This document shows, in pieces, positions 1,799-63,365 of a stretch of 64,000 nt of DNA; the first letter of the stretch is position 1; each line of letters opens with the position of its first letter. The position numbers and the translations under genes were made by a program. The stretch is taken from assembly GCF_029633865.1 (NCBI RefSeq), contig NC_079216.1, positions 61,882,915 through 61,946,914 on the forward strand. Direction: 5' to 3'. This DNA is from Lampris incognitus (lineage: Eukaryota > Chordata > Actinopteri > Lampriformes > Lampridae). Under the pieces are notes generated by a model, which was not told the origin of the DNA, ran no database searches, and saw nothing but the letters and a program-made list of their open reading frames with translations.

Positions 1799-18766
<16,968 letters not shown>

Positions 18767-20757: not shown

Positions 20758-23700
20758 TCTACTACTACTACTACTACTTTTGGCTGCTCCCGTTAGGGGT
20801 CGCCACAGTGGATCATCCATTTCCATTTCTTCCTGTCTTCTGCGTCTTCCTCTGTCGCACCAGCCACCTGCATGTCCTCCCTCACCACATCCATAAACCT
20901 CCTCTTTGCCTTCCTCTTTTCCTCTTAACTGGCAGCTCTATATTCAGCATCCTTCTCCCAATATACCCAGCATCTCTCCTCCACACATGTCCAAGCCATC
21001 TCAATCTTGCCTCTCTTGCCTTGTCTCCAAACCGTCCAACTTGAGCGGTCCCTCTAATATAATCATTCCTAATCCTGTCCTTCTTCGTCACTCCCAGTGA
21101 AAATCTTAGCATCTTCAACTCTGCCACCTCCAGCTTCGCCTCCGGTCTTTTCGTCAGTGCCACTGTCTCCAAACCATATAACATAGCGGGTCTCACAACC
21201 ATCTTGTAAACCTTCCCTTTAACTCTTGCTGGTACCCTTCTGTCGCAAATCACTCCTGACACTCTTCTCCACCCACTCCACCCTGCCTGCACTCTCTTCT
21301 TCACCTCTCTACTGCACTCCCCATTACTTTGGACAGTTGACCCCAAGTATTTAAACTCATATGCCGTCGTCACCTCCACTCCTTGCATCCTGACCCTTCC
21401 ACTGTCCTCCCTCTCATTCACGCATAGGTATTCTGTCTTGCTCCTACTGACTTTCATTCCTCTTCTCTCCAGTGAATACCTCCACCTCTCCAGGCTCTCC
21501 TCAACCTGCACCCTACTGTTGCTACGGATCACAATGTCATCCGCGAACATCATCGTCCATGGAGACTCCTGCCTGATGTTGTCCGTCAACCTGTCCATCA
21601 CCATTGCAAACAAGAAAGGGCTCAGAGCCGATCCTTGATGTATTCCCACCTCCACCTTGAACCCATCTGTCATTCCAACCGCACACCTCACCATTGTCAC
21701 ACTTCCCTCATGCATATCATGCACCACTCCTACATACTTCTCTGCAACTCCCGACTTCCTCATACAATACCACACCTCCTCTCTCGGCACCCTGTTGTAT
21801 GCTTTCTCTAAATCTACAAAGACACAATGCAACTCTTTCTGGCCTTCTCTATACTTCTCAATCAACATTCTCAAAGCAAACATCGCATCTGTGGTTCTCT
21901 TTCATGGCATGAAACCATACTGCTGCTCGCTGATCGTCACCTCTCCTCTTAACATAGCTTCTATTACTCTTTCCCAAATCTTCATGCTGTGGCTGATCAA
22001 CTTTGTACCTCTGTAGTTGCTACAGTTCTGCACATCACCCTTGTTCTTGAAAATCGGTACAAGTATGCTTCTTCCCCACTCCTCAGGCATCCTCTCACTT
22101 TCCAAGATTGTGTTACACAATCTAGTTAAAAACCCCACTGCCATCTCTCCTAAACACCTCCATGCCTTCACAGGTATGTCATCAGGACAAACTGCCTTTC
22201 CACTCTTCATCCTCTTCATAACTGCCCTCACTACCTCCTTGTTAATCTACTGAACTTCCTGATTCACTATCCCTACATCATCCAACCTTCTCTCTCTCTC
22301 ATTTTCTTCATTCATCAGCCCCTCAAAGTACTCCTTCCACCTTCTCAGCACACTCTCCTCGCTTGTCAGCACATTTCCATCTCTATCCTTGATCGCTCTA
22401 ACTTGCTGCACATCCTTTGCAGCTCGGTCCCTCTGTCTAGCCAATCGGTACAAGTCCTTTTCTCCTTCCTTAGTGTCTAACCTATCGTACAACTCACCAT
22501 ATGCCTTTTCCTTTGCCTTTGCCACCTCTCTCTTCGCTTTACGCTGCATCTCCTTGTACTCCTGTCTACTTTCTTCATCTCTCTGACTATCCCACTTCTT
22601 CTTTGCCAACCTTTTCCTCTGTATACTTTGCTGTACTTCCTCATTCCACCACCAAGTCTCCTTGTCTTCCTTCCTCTGTCCTGGTGACACACCAAGTACC
22701 TTCCTAGCTGTCTCCCTCACTATTTCTGCAGTGGTTGCCCAGCCATCTGGCAACTCTTCACTACCACCCAGTGCCTGTCTTAACTCCTGCCTGAACTCCA
22801 CGCAACAGTCTTCCTTCTTCAACTTCCACCATTTGATCTTCGGCTGTGTCTTCACTCGCTTCCTTTTCTTGGTCTCCAAAGTCATCCTACAGACCACCAT
22901 CTGATGCTGACTAGCTACGTTCTCCCCTGTCACCACCTTGCAGTCTCCAATCCCTTTTAGATCGCGACTTCTACATAAGATATAGTCCACCTGTGAGCAC
23001 TTTCCTCCACTCTTGAACGTCACCTTGTGTTCCTCCCTCTTCTTGAAATATGTATTCACCACAGCCATTTCCATCCTTTTTGCAAAATTGACCACCATCT
23101 GTCCTTCCATATTTCTCTCCTTGACTCCATACCTTCCCATCACCTCCTCACCACCCCTGTTCCCTTCACCAACATGTCCATTGAAGTCCACTCCAATCAT
23201 CACTCTCTCCTCCTTGGCTACCCTCTCCACCACGTCGTCCAACTCACTCCAGAATTCTTCTTTCTCTTCCATCTCCCACCCAACTTGTAGGGCATATGCG
23301 CTGATAACATTCAGCAGTACACCTTCAATTTCCAGCTTCATACTTATAACTCTGTCTGACGCTCTCTTCACCTCCAGCATGCTCTTGACATACTCTTCCT
23401 TCAGAATTACCCCTACCTTGTTTCTCCTCCCATTCGCACCATGGTAGAAGAGTTTGAACCCCCCTCTGATACTCCTGGCCTTACTCCCCTTCCACCTGGT
23501 CTCTTGCGCACACAGTATGCCTACCTTTCTTCTTTCCATCATATCAGCCAGCTCTCTCCCTTTACCAGTCATAGTGGCAACATTCAAGGTTCCAACTCTC
23601 ACTTCCACATGCCTACCCTTCCTCCTCTCTAGCTGCCTCTGGACATGCCTTCCCCCTCTCCTTCTCCTTCGCCCAACAGTAGCATAGTTTCCTCCAGCAC

Positions 23701-23903
23701 CCTGCTGGTTAACAGTACCAGTGGCGGTCGTTGGTAACGCGGGCCTCGACCGAGCCGGTATGGAAATCTTATTTATGATCCGCATATCTGATTTGGCAAA
23801 GATTTTACTCCGGCTGCCCTCCCTAACGCAACCCTCCCCATTTGTCCGTGCTTGGGACCGGCACTAAGAATGCACTGGCTTGTGCATCCTCAGTGGCTGG
23901 GTT
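20758..23903 (-). mobile_element. Near-complete RTE-clade LINE with target duplication
   Basis: About 3.15 kb on the minus strand, flanked by an identical 17-bp duplication AAAGAGCTCACTCCAAA at 20741-20757 and 23904-23920. The 3' end (at low coordinates) carries a short CTA/TAG trinucleotide tail next to GGCTGCTCCCGTTAGGGGTC (plus-strand orientation GGCTGCTCCCGTTAGGGG), typical of fish RTE elements of the Rex3/Expander type. The same 3' end occurs in the truncated copy at 34270-34876. The intact duplications and the long frame show a full-length and fairly recent insertion into an older Tc1 relic. Confidence 0.9.
20882..23785 (-). pseudogene. RTE LINE endonuclease-reverse transcriptase
   Basis: A single frame of about 967 codons, broken only by a TAG at 22247-22249 and a TGA at 21902-21904 (CAG and CGA are the likely ancestral codons). 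The N-terminal part is an AP-type endonuclease: VRVGTLNVATMTGKGRELAD, ILCAQETRWKGS, VMIGVDFNGHVGEG, and VDYILCRSRDLKG with SQHQMVV. A Lys/Arg-rich linker follows. The reverse transcriptase blocks are DDIPVKAWRCLG, LVPIFKNKGD, HCVFVDLEKAYNRVPREEVW, GIHQGSALSPFLF and the catalytic MFADDIVI. The C-terminus contains RLRWLGHVWRRD. Such elements copy themselves by target-primed reverse transcription. Two stops make this copy defective, but decay is slight. Confidence 0.88.
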
Positions 23904-30352: not shown

Positions 30353-30779
30353 TTAAATAGCCAACTGAAAATGGCTGACAGGCCCCACAGGCTCCAAGCA
30401 TACAACATGCTCACTGACTTCCCAGAAATCCCAGGAACCGCAACAGACCGTCAAAAACGAACATGTCACCCAGTCCATTGCACTGCCAAGTTCTCTTTGT
30501 GTGTAAATGAGCGGGAGAAGTGAAAGCTGCGCAAGTTAATAATTAACGAGACAGGTAAAAAAAAATGTAAACGGACTCTCTTCGCGCCGTTTTAGAATCG
30601 CACAGACGTCCGCTGAAACGCGTATCTCACTCATGTACATCCATACAACGAGCCGCCTCGATCCCCGCTCTGGATCTGGCGATCGATGCCACGTGGCTCG
30701 TCACTCGGCTAGTTTCGTCTGGGGGGGGCCGGAGCGTAAACAGGAAATCGGGAACGTCTCGAGTCTTCGTGAACTGAGG
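30353..30779. other. 5' flank of lactb, becoming CpG-rich
   Basis: No exon is recognised. From about 30580 the sequence becomes CpG-rich, which suggests the edge of the CpG island serving lactb. Confidence 0.35.
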
Positions 30780-30788
30780 TTCCCGGCC

Positions 30789-31377
30789 GCGATATTATGA
30801 ACCCTACATAGGCCTCGCCAAAATCCCGTTTCTGGCTTTGTCACGTGTGCGCCACCGTAGCAACGCGAAAATATGTTGTTATGGGGTTAGCGCTCATCAA
30901 GGAAACGCTGTACACCCACAACTTAACCTGTCTAAGTTATCCACAATCAACATTAACGTTTTTAACTCAATCTTTGCTTGCTCCACGTTTGAGCATAGGA
31001 TACTTCACCCCTTATCATGACTAGCTGGTAAATAGTGAGATTGCTCTTTATACACAGGTAACAACTTACTGATCAGCTTTCTTAAATGTGAGAAAGTCTA
31101 TTTATTAGATATATGTTCATTTTCAGACAACTAACGTTACTTACCTCCGTTCTGTTGTTGACAGCCAGCAGTCCAAAATTACAAAAGCAGCCAGCTGTCC
31201 AAAATTGCGAAAAATACAAAATTACAAAATTGAAGGTAGCTAACGTTAGCTTTGCTTCGCACCGAGTTGATAGTTGATTGTTTCCTCAGCAACGCAGCGG
31301 AAATCCGGCGTCCGTTCGCGAGATTTGGGACAGGGTACGGGATTTTGGCGAGGCCTATGTAGGGTTCATAATATCGC
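30789..31377. mobile_element. 589-bp inverted-repeat transposon at the lactb promoter
   Basis: Perfect 40-bp terminal inverted repeats at 30789-30828 and 31338-31377 (outer ends GCGATATTATGAACCCTACA; inner CGCCAAAATCCCG). They are flanked by an exact 9-bp duplication TTCCCGGCC at 30780-30788 and 31378-31386. The interior is AT-rich without a transposase. A 9-bp duplication fits Mutator-like elements best; the superfamily is otherwise unidentified. It ends 56 bp before the lactb start codon, so it separates the gene from its ancestral upstream DNA. Confidence 0.88.
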
Positions 31378-31860
31378 TTCCCGGCCAGCCAGCCCGCCCC
31401 CGCGTCGGCGAAAAGCGCTCAAGCCTCGCCGAGATGTCGCGGCTGTTGCTGCTGAGCCGCGTTTGCGCCAAGTGCAGATGTCTCCCCCCACCAGGCGCGC
31501 GTAATTCGGCTTCGTCGCCGACCGACCGCCGAGTGTCGGGCGAGCGGTCCGTCTTTCCGCTGCGGCGACAAAGGCAGCTCGCGAGGAGGTCGGGCGCGCC
31601 GACTTTCGGACGGCGCGGGAAGTCCGCCGTTTGGTTCTACGGGCTCGGCGCCGGACTAGCGTTGGCTCTCGGTCTGAGGCACCGCTCCGACCCGGCGGAC
31701 GGTTCGTGCGACGACGAAGCGACGCGTGACGAGGGGGCTCGGCGGTACGACGCTGCGATCGAAGCCAGCAGGGACCACGTGGAGCGGATAAAGGTAAGCG
31801 TGAGGGTAGGCTGCCCCGCGCTAACACGCGTGTCCCCGGGGGGGGGGGGGCGCACGCGTT
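31378..31860 (+). promoter_or_regulatory. CpG-rich core promoter and first exon of lactb
   Basis: Dense CpG sequence surrounds the lactb ATG (31434), with no TATA box, as for a housekeeping gene. The transcription start must lie either in the 56 bp between the transposon end and the ATG or inside the transposon. Confidence 0.55.
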
Positions 31861-34800
31861 CCGCACGCTTCTGTCAGCCCGGCTATTAACCAGACCTCTC
31901 CCGTTGCAGGATGAGGTCGGGGCCCCTGGGCTGGTGATAGGGGTGTCCGTGGATGGCACTCAAGTCTGGTGTGAAGGTTGGTGTCAAACAGGCATTCAGA
32001 TGTTTTTTTCCCCTTTAGTCGGATTCACATTCTGCATGCGTCCTGCTGTGTGACTTGGCACAGGAATTGGCTGCGCTGATTTGGAGAATCGGGTACCGTG
32101 CCATCCAGGGACAGTGATGCGCATTGCCAGCATCAGTAAGCCCCTCACCTCCGCAGCTGCAGCGCGCCTGTGGCAAGAGGGGAAACTGGACCTTGATGTG
32201 CCAGTTCAAAAGTATGTCCCAGAGTTCCCCCCAAAACAGTTTGACGGAGAAGATGTAAGTTGCTTGAAATTGGCATCAACATAAGCAGACGAGTTTCCAC
32301 GGCCTGCACGCTCTTGCCCTTCTCTCTCTCTCTCTCTCTCTCTCTCCCTCTCCTTTTTTTGGTTTTTGTGGAGTTCAGATGTTTCCTCTTCCATCACGTA
32401 GGTCACAATAACCCCCCGCATGATTCTCTCTCACCTAAGCGGGATACGGCACTACGAGAAGGATGCCAAGAAGGTGAGAGAGGACAGGGAGAAAGCCAAG
32501 CGAACTTTGAAGTCTCCCGTGAAAAAGGAAAAGAGAGTGAGTGAAAACAAGGAGAACTCCAAGACGGAAGACGCCACTGAGGGCAAAGAGGCCAAGCAGG
32601 CTCTGAGGAAAAGGGAGTTTGAGCAAGAGGAGTACTACCTGAAAGAAAACTTTGACAGTGTCGTCCAGTCTTTGGACCTGTTCAAGGACGACCCTCTAAT
32701 TTTCAAACCTGGTAAAGTGTGCATTTAGCTCACTGAATTGCAGTACAATTACATTCTGATTTTCTTTTCTTTTTTTTAAGTAACCGACTTGAGTGGCTAA
32801 ATTAAGTCTGCTTTTGACTGTTTACAGGCACCACCTTCCTGTATTCAACCCATGCCTTCACTTTGTTGAGCGCCATCGTGGAGCGAGCTGCCGGTCAACG
32901 CTTCTTGGATCACATGATGGATATGTTCCGTGAACTGGGAATGCTGAACACTGTGCCAGATGAGAATGATCCTATTATTTATCACCGCTCAAGGTAACAT
33001 ATAACAGCCTCTAGTCAAACTCTAGTGAGAACCAAAGTATTGTGTCAAATCAGTCACGAATTGCATCAGCTGCATGATCAGCAACGTCCCATCACATCCC
33101 GGTGGTACAGAGAATAAGTCTATTGCTTGTTTGCAGTCATGTGCTTCTGATGACCTGCGAGATTCAGGTGGAGGGCAGGGAGTGAAAAGCAGAATGGACG
33201 AGATGGAGGAAAGCCCGAACTGTGCTAGTTTAGACGATATTATGAGAGAAAGGTATAAACAGAAAGTAAGATATGTTGGACATGATCCTTATGTTATGAA
33301 GAGCTTGAAAGACTTGCCTGCTATCGAGGCAGTAGGTATAAGCAATCAGTACCTTGTCCTTCAGACATCCTTCTACTCAAGACAACAAATGAAAGCGTAC
33401 AAAAGCATGGAGGCATACAACTGTTGTTAGCAGTTGGGTCCACAACCTTTGTATCAAGGTGCTACACAACTATTGTCATTTGGTTTTTGCCAGGGCGAGC
33501 GGCTTTTCTTTCCTGTGGATTAACCTAACGACAAACATTCAATGCCGCAGCGCCTCTCAACATTGCTAGGTTAACCACTGTCAAAGGTCCGGTGAAATGC
33601 CACTAGAGATGTGGATCATCGCGAAACAAGATGGAGAAGTCATTACAGCTCATTGCAGTTGCGTGGCAGGTTAAGTTACTTGCGTTTGCCTGCCTTTTCT
33701 GTAATTTATAACCCCGATTTAAGTGGTAGCGGTGTCGCTTGTAGCTATTTTAAATCTATCACCAGTGCACACTCCCAGATGAACTGCAAAATACAAGTTT
33801 ACATTTGTGGTTAGTAAAGAAATATCTATCCCATTCAGATTGTCAGATTCCTGTTTTCATGTCGGGGCAGTTCTGTTTTGCATTGGAGCTGGTGTTAAGA
33901 TGCGGGATACAGCCTCCTGCACAACGGAAATGTGCAAGTGGCTGATGCCGTCACGTAAAAAAAAATTACATATCAATGCTGTTGTTTTTATTCCTTGTTC
34001 AGGTTTAGAAAGCTAAAATAGCCACAGCTGGTAAGACTCGCACAGTTGAAAAACCTGCATTAAAAATAAGACGTTGGGAGCCCAGTGTAAAACCTTGTCT
34101 TCATTCTTCTGGCTTAACTGTGTGTCCAATGCTTTAGTCTTAAAATCACTCAGCTCTGTTGTGGTTTTCTTTAGAACATCCTCCCATCTTCTCAGTGTCC
34201 ATCTTGCATCTGCATACATGGCAGTAGGGAGAGGGATTAGTTATTCAAATTACTCCCCAAATTATTAATCTACTACTACTACTACTACTACTTTCGGCTG
34301 CTCCCTTTAGGGGTCGCCACAGCGGATCATCCGTTTCTATTTCTTCCTGTCCTCTGCATCTTCCTCTGTCACACCAGCCACCTGCATGTCCTCTCTCACC
34401 ACATCCATAAACCTCCTCTTTGGCCTTCCTCTTCTCCTCTTCCCTGGCAGCTCCATATTCAGCATCCTTCTCCCAGTATACCCAGCATCTCTCCTCCACA
34501 CATGTCCAAACCATCTCAGTCTTGTCTCTCTTGCCTTGTCTCCAAACCGTCCAACCTGAGCTGTCCCTCTAATATACTCATTCCTAATCCTGTCCTTCTT
34601 CGTCACTCCCAGTGAAAATCTTAGCATCTTCAACTCTGCCACCTCCAGCTCCGCCTCCTGTCTTTTCATCAGTGCCACTGTCTCTAAACCATATAACCTA
34701 GCTGGTCTCACAACCATCCTGTAAACCTTCTCTTTAACTCTTGCTGGTACCCTTCTGTCACAAATCACTCCTGACACTCTTCTCCACCCACTCCCCCCTG

Positions 34801-35887
34801 CCTGCACTCTCTTCACCTCTCTACTGCACTCCCTCTTACTTTGAACAGTTGACCCCAAGTATTTAAACTCATTCCCAATTATTAATGATGATGATAATGT
34901 TACATTTTATATAGTGCAACAATGACGTAAATTGTTGTTGTCTAGTTATCTCCGTTGTTAACATTCTTACAAAGGTTCAATCTATCTGGTCCAATATAGT
35001 TGCAGACTCATTTCTTTATACCCTTATTTAACCAAGTGAGTTAATTGAGAACTAAGTTATCTACATTGTGTAAGCCTAATTCAAAGTTTACATTCATTAG
35101 TTTTTTCAAACTATAAGATACTGGCTACACGTACTATTAATACTGTTCATTTACCGTGTCGACCGTATAATATCTGTCAGACACTCCTTGCCCTCCATCT
35201 GGAAATCGCGTCCATTTGTGACGTCGTCCGCAAACAAGCGGTTGCTTTGAAAATGATTCCTATTATTTGTTGTGAATAGAATTGCTTTAAGTTTACACAG
35301 TGAAAACAATGAGAACGTTGGGATGATTTGAATCCGTCCTTTCACTGACTGTGTTCTTCCACAGATTTTATCATCATAACAAGACGGGGCGCGTGGTAAA
35401 CTGCCCGTATGTAGACAACTCGTACAAGTGGGCAGGAGGCGGCTTTCTTTCCACCGCTGGAGATCTGCTGCTGTTTGGCAATGCCTTACTCTACAGCTAT
35501 CAGGTGGCCCACCTGAAGGACAGCAAAGGCCTGCTGCCTGGCTTCCTCAAACCCCAAACTGCCCTGAATCTGTGGAGCCCGGTGGACAGGACAGAGGCCA
35601 GCTGGGATAAGGATGGACTGTATGCTCAGGGCTGGCTGGTGGTGGAGAAACTACAGAAATATGGTCAGTGTCGGTGTCGCAGGCACTATGTCTCACACAC
35701 AGGAGGGGCTGTGGGGGCTAGCAGTGTGCTTCTGGTGTTGCCCAGTGAAGAGGATTCACTCCAACAACAGACACCACCGCTCCCACAGGGGGTAGTGGTC
35801 ACCATCCTCACTAATATGCAGTCTGTGGGACTCAATAGCGTAGCTCTAAAAATCGCTCTCGAGTTTGACAGAGCCAGAGGCCTTTGA
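31434..35887 (+). CDS. lactb: Serine beta-lactamase-like protein LACTB, mitochondrial
   Basis: Six exons: 31434-31793, 31910-31976, 32064-32254, 32402-32711, 32828-32993 and 35365-35887, giving 538 residues (human about 547). The family descends from bacterial penicillin-binding/beta-lactamase proteins (peptidase family S12). LACTB forms filaments in the mitochondrial intermembrane space and affects lipid metabolism. Visible here are an Arg/Ser-rich N-terminus, a hydrophobic segment at 66-81 (VWFYGLGAGLALALGL), the catalytic SxxK motif Ser165-Ile-Ser-Lys168, Tyr315-Ser-Thr in the YxN position, and the His-Thr-Gly-Gly motif at 476-479. A Lys/Glu-rich insert, usual for the animal protein, occupies about 226-290. 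All motifs are intact, so it should be functional. An in-frame TTG upstream (31278) is not a start. Intron 5 is long and contains transposon remnants. Confidence 0.95.
33074..34017 (+). pseudogene. SWIM zinc-finger transposon-type gene relic, spliced
   Basis: Within lactb intron 5, same strand. Three pieces line up as one protein. 33074-33430 encodes ERYKQKVRYVGHDPYVMKSL and LQTSFYSRQQMKAYKSMEAY. 33601-33669 encodes EMWIIAKQDGEVITAHCSC, then VAG at a GT. 33839-34017 encodes LSDSCFHVGAVLFCIGAGVK and MRDTASCTTEMCKWLMPSRK. Together they have a SWIM-type CxC...C-x-H zinc finger as in multi-copy fish proteins that also carry a YqaJ-like nuclease. A ~169-bp intron interrupts the SWIM finger between CSCVAG and LSDSCFH. 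A stop at 33428, a one-base phase mismatch at the donor and the missing C-terminus make it a pseudogene. Confidence 0.6.
34270..34876 (-). mobile_element. 5'-truncated RTE LINE copy in lactb intron 5
   Basis: The 3' 0.6 kb of the RTE element described at 20758-23903, with the (CTA)n tail at 34270-34292 and C-terminal frame MGSTVQSKRECSREVKRVQA ... RLRWFGHVWRRDAGYTGRRM. Flanked by a 10-bp duplication AATTATTAAT at 34260-34269 and 34877-34886. 5' truncation is normal for LINE insertions. Confidence 0.88.
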
Positions 35888-38060: not shown

Positions 38061-39333
38061 GTTGTGGAAGTAATCCAGAAGTGTCGGAGTGGTTAGTTCC
38101 CATCACATTCACAACTCATTGGTTTGACAAGGTCACGGGCAGGATATTGACTCGAGCATATATAGTCCAGTGTGTATCAAAGTGACTGTCGTCTGTGATG
38201 TGTTCAGAGTCTTGGCCAAGCAACATTTCTAACTGCATAATAACTCTAGCTAACCTCTTGTTTATGATAAAAAAATGAATCGAGCTTCTCGATGACAACC
38301 ATCAAACTGCAGGGTTTCCTATGGGTGGTTCTGAGCAGTATTTAGAGAGCTCAGGAGGTCCATGTAAATGTAAAGTCTGTTTAGCATATCACTGGAAATG
38401 TGGTCTAGTGATTTTTAATGCTCCTACTGTGTGGAATAGAAGCTGATGTGATGCCAGCCCTGTGATTGTAAACCTGCAGCTGAGCTCAAGAACCATCTGT
38501 GGCTAGGATTTCCTGTGCTCCTATATTTAGTTTGAATGGGGCTGGCGAATAAATTGGCCTAAGCGGACCCGACAGGTAACAGATTATGTTTTGAATGAAG
38601 GTGAAGTTGGCACCTTAAATGTGTGGGTGTGGTTTTTGACCTACAACCACATTGTCATATCAGTCAGTTTAGTTTATTACTTTTATGTGCACAGTTACAA
38701 TAAACACACAAGGAGCTTTGATGCATTAAATGACACAGTTATCTCAATATACAGTAATATATAATTAAATATTAAGCAGTCAGTTATAGATCAAAACTTT
38801 TAAAATGGTTTTTTTTTTCACGCAATCTAACAGCGCTTTGTAAATATCTCACAAGCTTCAAAGCACATTGAAATGTGACTCTCCGTATGTGAGTATCAAT
38901 GGTGCTAAATTCATATCCTTGTTAAAAATGTTATAATGCCTGGCTTCCCTTTTTCCTGCGCGTGTGTGTGTGTGTGTGTGTGTCTGTGTGTGTGCGTGCC
39001 TAGGTGTCTGTTGTTATGGCAGTGAGAATACTAACACATCCAAAAATCGCAAGACAGTGTGTCAGCGGTACTGTACATGTATGGTGAGGCTGCCCTGAAT
39101 GATCCGTACAGACCCAGCCTCGATTCGGCCGAGACGAGAGTCTGCGACTACAGGCTGCAGACGGGTAAAATATTATGTATAGTTTTCCTCATTCCACTTG
39201 CAATTATGCGCCCATTTGCAAAGCAGCATCAAATCACACAGAGCGACTCACACCCTTGGCTGTGACTCGTTTCGTTATCCAGCCCAGACCATTAAGATCG
39301 TGGGGGGGGGGGGAAAGTCAACTCGGATAGGGA
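38061..39333. other. Region between lactb and nrg4; probable nrg4 3' UTR
   Basis: No coding exon is recognised. A (GT)n tract lies near 38960-38996. The part nearest the nrg4 stop codon is probably its 3' UTR. A minus-strand AATAAA (plus TTTATT, 38673-38678) is one possible poly(A) signal. Confidence 0.35.
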
Positions 39334-40422
39334 TCATACTCTTGGTTTTACTTTCCAGTATTGTTGCTGACTGCCCTGTTGGCTCTGTGACCTGGATCTC
39401 CTCGCCCTGTAAGGGGACACAAATGATTCATTTTAAGTTTTGAAGGAATGCGTTACGGCAACAGTAGCTTTAGAATATGAGTGATACAAAATGTATCTGC
39501 TACTTACTTGCATATATGGTAAATAACAACTGCCACTCCTACTAAAATGAGTATGGCAACAATGACCATGGCAGCAATAAACCCAGCGTGCCCTGCGTTG
39601 CTGGAGCTGCTGAAGAGCTGGAACTGCTCACACCTGCTGCCCTTGTAGTTTTCACTGCACCTGTAAAGTAACGTATTACATGCAATCATGTGGACAACCT
39701 GTGAGCACGGAGGAAATGAGTTCAACAGCATGCTATGCCCTGCTATGAAACCATATGGCTGCTGGGAATTTAAATGTGCCCACACACGTGTACACACACA
39801 CACACACACACACGTATTATTGATACTCAAAATGAAATCGCAAGTGTGTGATACTTACACACAGGTGAGTGTGTCCATCGAGGGTATTCTATAGCATGTC
39901 CCGCCGTTCATACAAAAGGTTGCCTCCAGCTCACTACAAGGGTCACCGTGTTCTGCACGGACACGACAACGTTTCAGGGATCGTGGCTTCGAATAAAGTA
40001 TACCGTCAATGGGGAACAATGCACACGTGGCTTTGAACAGGTTAGCGGACTTGTGTACGCTTGTTTTACGGGATCTCGGCAAATTTGGCTTTGTTTCCTC
40101 CTACCTTGAGTTGTCATGGAAGTTACAACTTAAAATCCGGTTGAAAATCGTGGCTCCAAATTAGACAACGGGCAATTGCGGATTAGGTCTTTGTGCAAGT
40201 GGCGATAATGAACCGTTAACACCAACTATGTCTTTATGCGTGCTCAATAATCCAGGTAAGACGGTCAAAGAAAGGTGACTCGGTTCATCCGATTCCACTT
40301 TTCAGCCGATTTTGTACGTCGTTTCCGGATGAACTGATTCAGCTTTCTTTGACAAACCATGTGTCTTCGTCCCGAGTTCTGATCGTTTCCCCAGCGATAT
40401 TGTTGGTATTACCTGCCATCAT
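39334..40422 (-). CDS. nrg4: Neuregulin 4 (pro-NRG4), EGF-type ErbB4 ligand
   Basis: Minus-strand coding exons: 40422-40413 (ATG ATG GCA G), 39952-39859, 39660-39508 and 39406-39334. All have AG/GT sites and matching phases, giving 109 residues (human 115). Residues 9-45 form one EGF domain with six cysteines (C9, C17, C23, C34, C36, C45): DPCSELEATFCMNGGTCY and CVCSENYKGSRCEQF. A transmembrane helix spans about 61-82 (GFIAAMVIVAILILVGVAVV), followed by a short basic/Gln-rich tail ending WKVKPRV. NRG4 is shed from the cell surface and activates ErbB4. The short leader without a signal peptide and the exon phase after the start (ATG...G|) match human NRG4. Either of two tandem ATGs may initiate. 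Intron phase and gene neighbour (TMEM266) also agree. Confidence 0.9.
40264..40353. repeat. Snap-back inverted repeat in nrg4 intron 1
   Basis: Arms 40264-40291 and 40326-40353 are complementary at 25 of 28 positions around a 34-nt loop. The sequence (GTCAAAGAAAG..TCA..GTTCATCCG) equals the two inverted ends of the Penelope-like element at 37022-38060. This is therefore a terminus-only relic. It lies about 60 bp downstream of the nrg4 start exon in transcription order. Confidence 0.7.
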
Positions 40423-41770: not shown

Positions 41771-41914
41771 GGTGGGTGGCTCGTGTTATGGGCCGGTGGG
41801 TGGCTCGTGTTATGGGCCGGTGGGTGGCTCGTGTTATGGGCCGGTGGGTGGCTCGTGTTATGGGCCGGTGGGTGGCTCGTGTTATGGGCCGGTGGGTGGC
41901 TCGTGTTATGGGCT
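41771..41914. repeat. 24-bp minisatellite, six copies
   Basis: Six almost identical copies of a GGTGGGTGGCTCGTGTTATG-GGCC unit. The unit length is divisible by three and has no stop in any forward frame, which produces spurious repetitive reading frames. It lies upstream of the putative tmem266 first exon. Confidence 0.95.
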
Positions 41915-56510: not shown

Positions 56511-58590
56511 AGCTTACCCAGAGCCCGGGTTATCGTCCCCCAGATCGGCCCGCTCCCTGCAGCAGCGGCCGCAGCGGCATATGCCGCTGATCTCCAGGGG
56601 TCGGAGCGAGAGGTGTGAAGCGCCGCAGCCGTGACAGATGGTTCATATGGGTCAACTCGCTGCTGTGACTAGATGGGAGCGAAGAGGTGACGAGGATGAG
56701 AAATGAACGGAACAAGAGAGGAGGGGATCTGGCAACCCTCCTCCACATTTCCACTCGCAAAGCTGCCAGCTGCAGATTAGCAGGACGGAAATGGTTTCGT
56801 TTGATGGATGCCTTGTGTGCTCATGCCGGTTGGCAGTGCGGCGTTAACCCTGTGTAGTGCGCTGCATGCAGCGGCAGGCTAAGGGGGCTGGCTGATACGG
56901 TACTGCGGTGAGATGGGGAGGGGGGGGGGTATTAGATAGGCTTAAGCACATAGCCTGGCCAGCACAAACCAGCCATCGTGAGTGGTTACTTATAGGTTAA
57001 GTAAACCCGAATGCTCACTGATGTAAAGGCCTCCAGCAACTTATCCTGTCGCCATCGAGACGTTTCACCCGCTAGTGCTCGCCGTGGCGTTAAGCTCACT
57101 GGCACATCATCAGACCAAGGCATTAACGATGAAATCAGATGGTGTGATTACAAAAAGAGCTAGGCGGCAGAACGTCGCACTCAAGGCGCTTAGCCGAGGG
57201 TAGGATGGTTCTCGGCAGCCGCGCCGATTCTCGGGTCTGTGGCTCCAGAAACGCGCTATACCTGCTCCGTGTAGACGGATGGCCGGGGAGGGAAGAGCGC
57301 TAGTCCTCATTTTTGTTGTCTCTTCTCGACTCTTTTTCAAACACTCGGAGGAGCAGTCCCCTCCGTCAAGTCGGCCCGCCCTACCTCCAGCGCCGGGTGC
57401 GGTACAATAGACGACGGTTGAGTGCGGGGTTTGAGGGTTCGTTCATTTTCACAGACATGCAAAGTGCGAGATTGCTTTTTTTTTGTGCGTGGAGGGCGTG
57501 AAAAGATCAAGCGTCCTCGTGAAGAGCCATTTATCAGGAACCGCCGCTTCTACACGTGTAGCCCCATCCATCTCCATTCGCCTCACATCTGAGGCGCATT
57601 TCGCCGGCGGAGGCCAGCTCCGCGTTGCCTCTGCCGGGCAGACGAGCGGCGCCGTAGCGCCGGCACGCGAGGGAAGAGAAGGAGACGGTCCGGGTTAAAC
57701 CGGAAAGCTGTGTTATTTCTTTGCAACATAGGATGGAAAGCGAAACGGCTGACCACAGCTAACAAGCTGTGGCGGGTGCATGTGCCAGGATGTGCTCAAA
57801 ACGGAGTCCGAAGCTTTCTGCACCCCCACCCCCCCCAAAAAAACCAAAACCAAAACAATCGATGGGCGCTTTTCAGTCGGCTTGATAAGTCCCTTCAACA
57901 TTGTTTGCTAATCCCCCGGGCGTGAGCGCAAGTGATTAATGCTGGGGAGATATGAAAGCGCTAAACTGTAAAATTGATTACCTATGATAACGGCCGTCGG
58001 AGCCGTATTCAGCATATTTCTTGCTTAGCTGGTTTTCCCTTCTCTCGGGGCCCCTCTGCTCCCACTGGCAGCGGGGGAGGCCGATGACTCGGCAGCGGTT
58101 ACAGAGGAGAGGAGCCGAACCTGTCGTCTTAGCGTTTGTCTTTATTTTAAAGCGATCCAGGGGATGTGCCCCGTACGTGCGATTTCAGAAGGCGGTGGCA
58201 CTCGAGCAAAAAATGCATATATGGGGGGTGGGGGTGGGGTGGGGGGGTTATAAGAAACGTCACTTCGGACTAATGTGGCGAGCGAAGGTACGCGTACAAC
58301 CTGTGCAGTTTGAACAGGCCGGAGCAGAATGAAGCTGCCCGGCCTCCGCCGTTCGGTAGCCAGAAGCCTCGCCGTCCGTTTCCACCCCCCCCCCCTCGTG
58401 CCCGCCGAGCACGCCGGGTTGGTGTGAATGTGTCAAACGGGAGAATCCGCAGGGCCGTGTAGGAATCAGTCCGGGGGGGGGGGGACCGAAAGGAGACGGG
58501 CGGGACAGACTTTACATCACATCGAATAGCTTCGTAGAAATGATACGTCTGTTTGAAGCGATGCCATCGCTGACTACCTGTAGTGTTCCT
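56511..58590. other. tmem266 intron 3, GC-rich unique-looking DNA
   Basis: No exon or repeat family recognised. The sequence is CpG-rich in places (56520-56620, 57580-57700), which could mark regulatory DNA. Several C and G runs (58386-58397, 58473-58484) are present. I see no open frame with protein character. Confidence 0.35.
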
Positions 58591-59223
58591 GCAGTACTGC
58601 CGCTATGCAGTACTGCCACTATGCAGTACTGCCGCTATGCAGTACTGCCACTATGCAGGACTGCCACTATGCAGTACTGCCACTATGCAGGACTGCCACT
58701 ATGCAGGACTGCCACTATGCAGGACTGCCACTATGCAGTACTGCCGCTATGCAGTACTGCCACTATGCAGTACTGCCGCTATGCAGTACTGCCGCTATGC
58801 AGTACTGCCACTATGCAGTACTGCCACTATGCAGGACTGCCACTATGCAGGACTGCCACTATGCAGGACTGCCACTATGCAGTACTGCCGCTATGCAGTA
58901 CTGCCACTATGCAGGACTGCCACTATGCAGTACTGCCACTATGCAGGACTGCCACTATGCAGTACTGCCGCTATGCAGTACTGCCACTATGCAGGACTGC
59001 CACTATGCAGTACTGCCACTATGCAGGACTGCCACTATGCAGGACTGCCACTATGCAGGACTGCCACTATGCAGTACTGCCACTATGCAGGACTGCCACT
59101 ATGCAGGACTGCCACTATGCACTACTACCACTATGCAGTACTGCCACTATGCACTACTACCACTATGCACTACTACCACTGTGCAGTACTGCCACTATGC
59201 AGTACCGCCACTATGCAGGACTA
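58591..59223. repeat. 16-bp minisatellite, about 40 copies
   Basis: Tandem units of CAGTACTGCCACTATG with two main variable sites (GTA/GGA and CCA/CCG). The GG+CCG combination does not occur among about 33 regular units. The last units are degenerate (CACTACTACCACTATG). Because 16 is not a multiple of three, all three forward frames are open and each encodes the same 16-residue periodic peptide (YCHYAVLPLCSTATMQ type). These are not genes. Confidence 0.98.

Positions 59224-62526: not shown

Positions 62527-63365
<839 letters not shown>

Follow-up and report, generated by a model that had tools for sequence, protein, structure and literature searches.

The critical question raised by this locus is what kind of DNA lies directly in front of the presumed start codon of LACTB in Lampris incognitus, how it arrived there, and what its arrival might have meant for the gene. 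In the initial annotation of the 64-kb stretch that we analysed (hereafter, the window), the sequence at this position was read as a transposon whose suggested recent insertion had displaced the proximal promoter, with a duplication of a length typical of Mutator-like transposases. Our analysis confirms the terminal inverted repeats (TIRs) and the flanking duplication, excludes a chance origin for them, and supports a cut-and-paste DNA transposon insertion. With regard to the wider scenario, we consider it probable that one non-autonomous copy was mobilised in trans, with a Mutator-like element as the likeliest source, that its target was a CpG-rich region at the LACTB 5′ end, and that transcription now starts in the leader or in the rightmost bases of the element. 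A bolder version, in which an undescribed vertebrate family was recently mobilised by a true Mutator-like transposase (or by a new one making 9-bp duplications) and, in this lineage, took the place of the region where the LACTB promoter starts transcription, appears improbable to us.

The transposon copy spans positions 30789–31377 (589 bp). Its left TIR (30789–30829, plus strand), which begins with GCG and contains three CpG dinucleotides, recurs with the same sequence on the minus strand as the right TIR (31337–31377). The two arms are identical at 41 of 41 positions and the next base inward is a mismatch; the repeats had been described, at correct coordinates, as 40 bp long. Directly abutting both TIRs on the plus strand is the target-site duplication TTCCCGGCC (30780–30788 and 31378–31386), which matches at nine of nine positions, exactly as had been claimed. 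The probability that such a direct match arises by chance is approximately 4e-6 given the composition of the window and 7e-6 given the local composition. When inverted repeats within 4 kb were sought in 20 sequences simulated with a first-order Markov model of the window, the longest perfect repeat was 13–15 bp in every one of them. Six inverted-repeat pairs built on a perfect 14-base seed and lying within 4 kb were found in the actual window, and only the element at 30789–31377 is flanked by a direct duplication of at least 6 bases. One further pair is long (23 bp, 38961–39814), but it has no end duplication and overlaps a GT repeat.

Furthermore, the element looks foreign to its insertion site because the GC content of its interior is 0.41, versus 0.58 and 0.70 in the 200-bp flanks. 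An RNA fold z-score of −10.35 was obtained, which carries no extra weight because the inverted ends alone would give such a value. An identity as a structured RNA was considered and rejected, with zero Rfam matches at the gathering threshold in the window. A bacterial promoter scan returned three promoter-like sites versus 0.8 expected, under a bacterial model that is inapplicable to this genome, and two of the three are a single stretch repeated in both TIRs. The motif TAACGTTA, present twice, and 25-nt internal repeats were also noted, and no further significance emerged for either.

The age of the insertion can be addressed by comparing its paired sequences. Zero differences among 41 end pairs and 9 duplication pairs limit divergence to no more than 5.8% at 95%, which sets a maximum age of 14.5 million years if a rate of 2e-9 per site per year is assumed, and of 2.9 million years if the assumed rate is 1e-8. 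The same three CpG dinucleotides are present in both TIR arms, which would fit either youth or an unmethylated site. The 50 matching sites are compatible with the earlier description of the insertion as recent, but what they provide is an upper bound, and a divergence of up to 5.8% would satisfy it equally.

Stops interrupt all six reading frames of the element. Six internal open reading frames (ORFs) of 30 or more amino acids lie wholly inside it, and the four that were scanned yielded no Pfam match above the family cut-off and no match to a transposase, in agreement with the earlier statement that none is encoded. We take the element to be non-autonomous and MITE-like, without a recognisable transposase gene. 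To generate this copy, a transposase encoded elsewhere in the genome, most likely supplied by a Mutator-like element, would bind the 41-bp ends and make a 9-bp staggered cut in the CpG-rich, promoter-like sequence at the LACTB 5′ end. The element would be joined to the cut ends, and repair of the gaps would leave the TTCCCGGCC duplication.

The surrounding DNA holds no second copy: blastn returned only short, chance-level matches and no other full or end copies in the 64-kb window. A 16-base end probe allowed up to three mismatches matched both TIR ends and nothing else in the window, a result that is weak by itself, as two matches were also reached in 4 of 100 shuffles. Among ORFs of the window (stop-to-stop, at least 85 residues, complexity-filtered; n=170), a Pfam scan at E 0.01 covered 96. 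It identified part of LACTB, tropomyosin and a reverse transcriptase, together with weak matches to endonuclease and protease families, and no DNA-transposase domain in the 96. The reverse transcriptase match (E 6.2e-24) lies beside weak endonuclease matches below the cut-off, and the region that holds them, at 20885–23863 on the minus strand, looks like the remains of a non-LTR retrotransposon. The exact 24-base TIR sequence had no match in viral or prokaryotic contig collections, 20-base and 18-base versions had none in viral contigs, and phage and plasmid collections gave no similarity at E 0.01, although a fish element would not be expected in any of these sources. A 15-mer and six 12- to 13-mers from the TIR are absent from the literature searched, and the portions of the transposon superfamily literature available to us give rules for classification and no named match to this element.

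A transposon insertion close to a promoter is an ordinary and common event, and this example belongs to a known kind. Its main wider interest resides in the identity of the transposase. P and Zisupton elements make 8-bp duplications, as opposed to the 9 bp seen here, and this length also distinguishes the element from the medaka P element called Izanagi, which is discussed below. We leave the superfamily open, and our best guess is a Mutator-like source, which is favoured because of the combination of a 9-bp duplication, 41-bp ends and a GCG terminus. Mutator-like elements (MULEs) are described as making target-site duplications of 8–11 bp (PMC6446971), a range that includes the 9 bp observed. 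According to an account of arthropod MULEs, most species have TIRs of 20–95 bp, and most of these elements begin with three bases that are mostly G or C (PMC13359780). The GCG terminus agrees with this pattern, which would be matched by chance about one time in eight and is weak for that reason.

Comparison with maize Mu elements adds a point about location. Of the 8 fixed positions in the target consensus of maize Mu, the site used here agrees at 5, where 4 are expected, and is uninformative. Maize Mu elements are reported to favour sites near transcription starts and in open chromatin (PMC2774946), so the location of the element is expected rather than striking. The nonautonomous Muta1 derivatives of Aedes aegypti, as reported, provide a close likeness in kind, being derivatives with TIRs and 8–9-bp duplications, and 110 of 171 insertions are inside a gene or no more than 5 kb from one. 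In contrast to the 41-bp TIRs of the Lampris element, TIRs exceed 100 bp in 12 of the 14 families from Aedes (PMC5225508). The Lampris element also differs in residing in a vertebrate, where the existence of MULEs is disputed (PMC6446971).

This dispute tempers the Mutator-like link suggested in the initial annotation, which is plausible given the duplication length and the GCG terminus. A survey of MULE transposases that lists nine vertebrate entries reports no match for the three vertebrate MuDR entries listed as autonomous, and judges these to be probably misidentified (PMC6446971). Copies under the MuDR label number 4276, 206 and 70 in three teleosts in a tabulated survey (PMC4746887), and these counts may fall under the same doubt. 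A non-autonomous transposon mobilised by a different superfamily, whether Merlin, an atypical relative of hAT or P, or a transposase not yet described whose duplications are 9 bp long, is possible in our view and is the alternative that survives best. In addition to the doubt over true vertebrate MULEs, it draws on the occurrence of Merlin in zebrafish, with duplications of 8–9 bp, a length shared by the element, and TIRs of 24–462 bp (PMC8101967), and on the 76084 Merlin copies given in the first column, presumed to be zebrafish, of the teleost table (PMC4746887). Merlin itself was rejected, as the new families of that account and all other Merlin families are stated there to start with GG, whereas the TIR of the element starts with GC (PMC8101967). 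Likewise, hAT was rejected on its stated duplication length of 5–8 bp (PMC4482050).

If an autonomous partner were found to encode a MULE transposase, the element would matter more, given that the survey holds its vertebrate MULE records to be misidentified (PMC6446971), and the 41-bp end offers a ready probe for the vertebrate MULE question.

The second question is what the insertion might have done to the adjacent gene. The right target-site duplication and the start of the presumed LACTB coding region are close together, with 56 bases between the end of the element and the ATG at 31434–31436 on the plus strand; both this distance and the 589-bp length had been given correctly in the initial annotation. 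The frame opened by this ATG runs for 151 residues and ends at 31889. We regard the start codon as presumed because the first-exon protein has no Pfam match above the cut-off. Its identity is taken from a downstream exon near 32081, which matches LACTB chains in the PDB (E 4.7e-24) and supports the gene label originally assigned. A further beta-lactamase-type exon overlaps 35327–35884 (E 5e-5, below the Pfam cut-off). Tropomyosin-type peptides occur on the plus strand from 1832 to 16585, with one Pfam match (E 2.3e-5), and a TPM1–LACTB order is known from vertebrates.

CpG-rich DNA is present on both sides of the element. Upstream, in the stretch at 30401–30788 that is now parted from the gene, 300-bp intervals beginning at 30401 and 30551 have CpG observed/expected ratios of 1.28 and 1.40 and GC contents of 0.49–0.54, with the second interval extending 62 bases into the element. 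Downstream, in the stretch at 31387–31900 that contains the presumed first exon, intervals beginning at 31451 and 31601 have ratios of 1.46 and 1.29 and GC contents of 0.69–0.70, and the ratio is 0.80 for the interval from 31751. Two intervals in the middle of the element give 0.84 and 0.74. Over 500-bp flanks the ratios are 1.06 upstream and 1.33 downstream, compared with 0.57 for the whole window. We infer that the CpG-rich DNA around the element might be a single promoter island, a reading that we hold loosely because the upstream GC content is moderate. If there was one island, the insertion would have shifted its upstream half 598 bp further from the presumed ATG. The locus would also permit a before-and-after test of how a 598-bp split affects the promoter of this gene, which encodes a mitochondrial protein.

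The position of the transcription start can be approached through the ATG content of the element. Seven ATGs occur on its sense strand, and each of the frames they open terminates upstream of 31434. The rightmost is a start-stop upstream reading frame (ATG TAG, 31357–31362, plus strand) inside the right TIR. When the flanks are joined as an empty site, no ATG is present between 30689 and 31434. A transcript started upstream of the element would carry all seven ATGs unless they were spliced out, and between 30700 and 31500 a single strong match to a splice donor was found, at 31147 on the minus strand. Because of these seven ATGs, a start downstream of the element or at its right edge is favoured over one upstream, and because that single strong donor-like sequence has the wrong orientation for the gene, we infer that LACTB transcription most likely begins in the GC-rich 56-bp leader or in the last bases of the element. 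The proposal that the proximal promoter was displaced is preserved in part: the CpG-rich DNA on both sides agrees with it, and the ATG load points to a start downstream or at the right edge and not upstream.

One might instead propose that LACTB has adopted the element as its promoter, such that transcription starts inside it and depends on its sequences, for example the CACGTG E-box at 30842 and the CpG-rich ends, whose terminal 100 bp carry 8 and 10 CpG dinucleotides. Under such a scheme, the internal CACGTG would be accompanied by the loss of proximity of an older CACGTG at 30690, which would be 146 bp before the ATG without the insert and is now 744 bp before it. There is also a likeness in fish, in that the nonautonomous P element Izanagi is located upstream of medaka dmrt1bY and bears a Sox5 site; in Izanagi, however, this site is reported to reside in a Rex1 insert (PMC7599744). 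We consider this takeover unlikely, as simple pattern searches found no TATA box, CCAAT box or GC box inside the element, and a transcript that started before 31357 would have one or more upstream ATGs in its leader. No relevant literature, judged by title, was found by a search that combined the LACTB promoter, transposable elements and fish.

The minus-strand site at 31147, approximately 230 bp inward from the right end of the element, has the sequence GAG/GTAAGT and may be a remnant of a gene that the element once carried. It could also be viewed as the mark of a Pack-MULE-like element that has captured a fragment of a host gene, given that 0.06 such sites are expected in 1178 nt, that the termini are CpG-rich, and that one of the scanned internal ORFs, on the minus strand, matches Mpv17_PMP22 below the threshold (E 0.013; 15.9 bits versus a cut-off of 27). 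We take this match to be due to chance. Gene capture is very doubtful, since the four scanned internal ORFs have no match above the cut-off, and since the splice-like sequence is a single short motif of a kind that a shrunken transposase gene would leave as well. We judge it negligibly probable that there is no transposon here at all, and that the structure is an error of assembly or a palindromic promoter conserved among fish lactb genes, because a 9-bp direct duplication exactly abutting 41-bp inverted ends is the signature of transposition. Such a duplication would make no sense in a palindromic promoter and would hardly result from misassembly.

Repetitive DNA of other types is also present in the window, away from the insertion. 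A tandem array at 58590–59222 consists of approximately 40 copies of the 16-bp unit TGCAGTACTGCCACTA with 93% matches, and a 24-bp unit is repeated six times at 41771–41913 with 100% matches and no indels. Near the end of the window, an imperfect TC repeat of approximately 700 bp (62537–63232) is followed by a further TC-type repeat (63310–63362).
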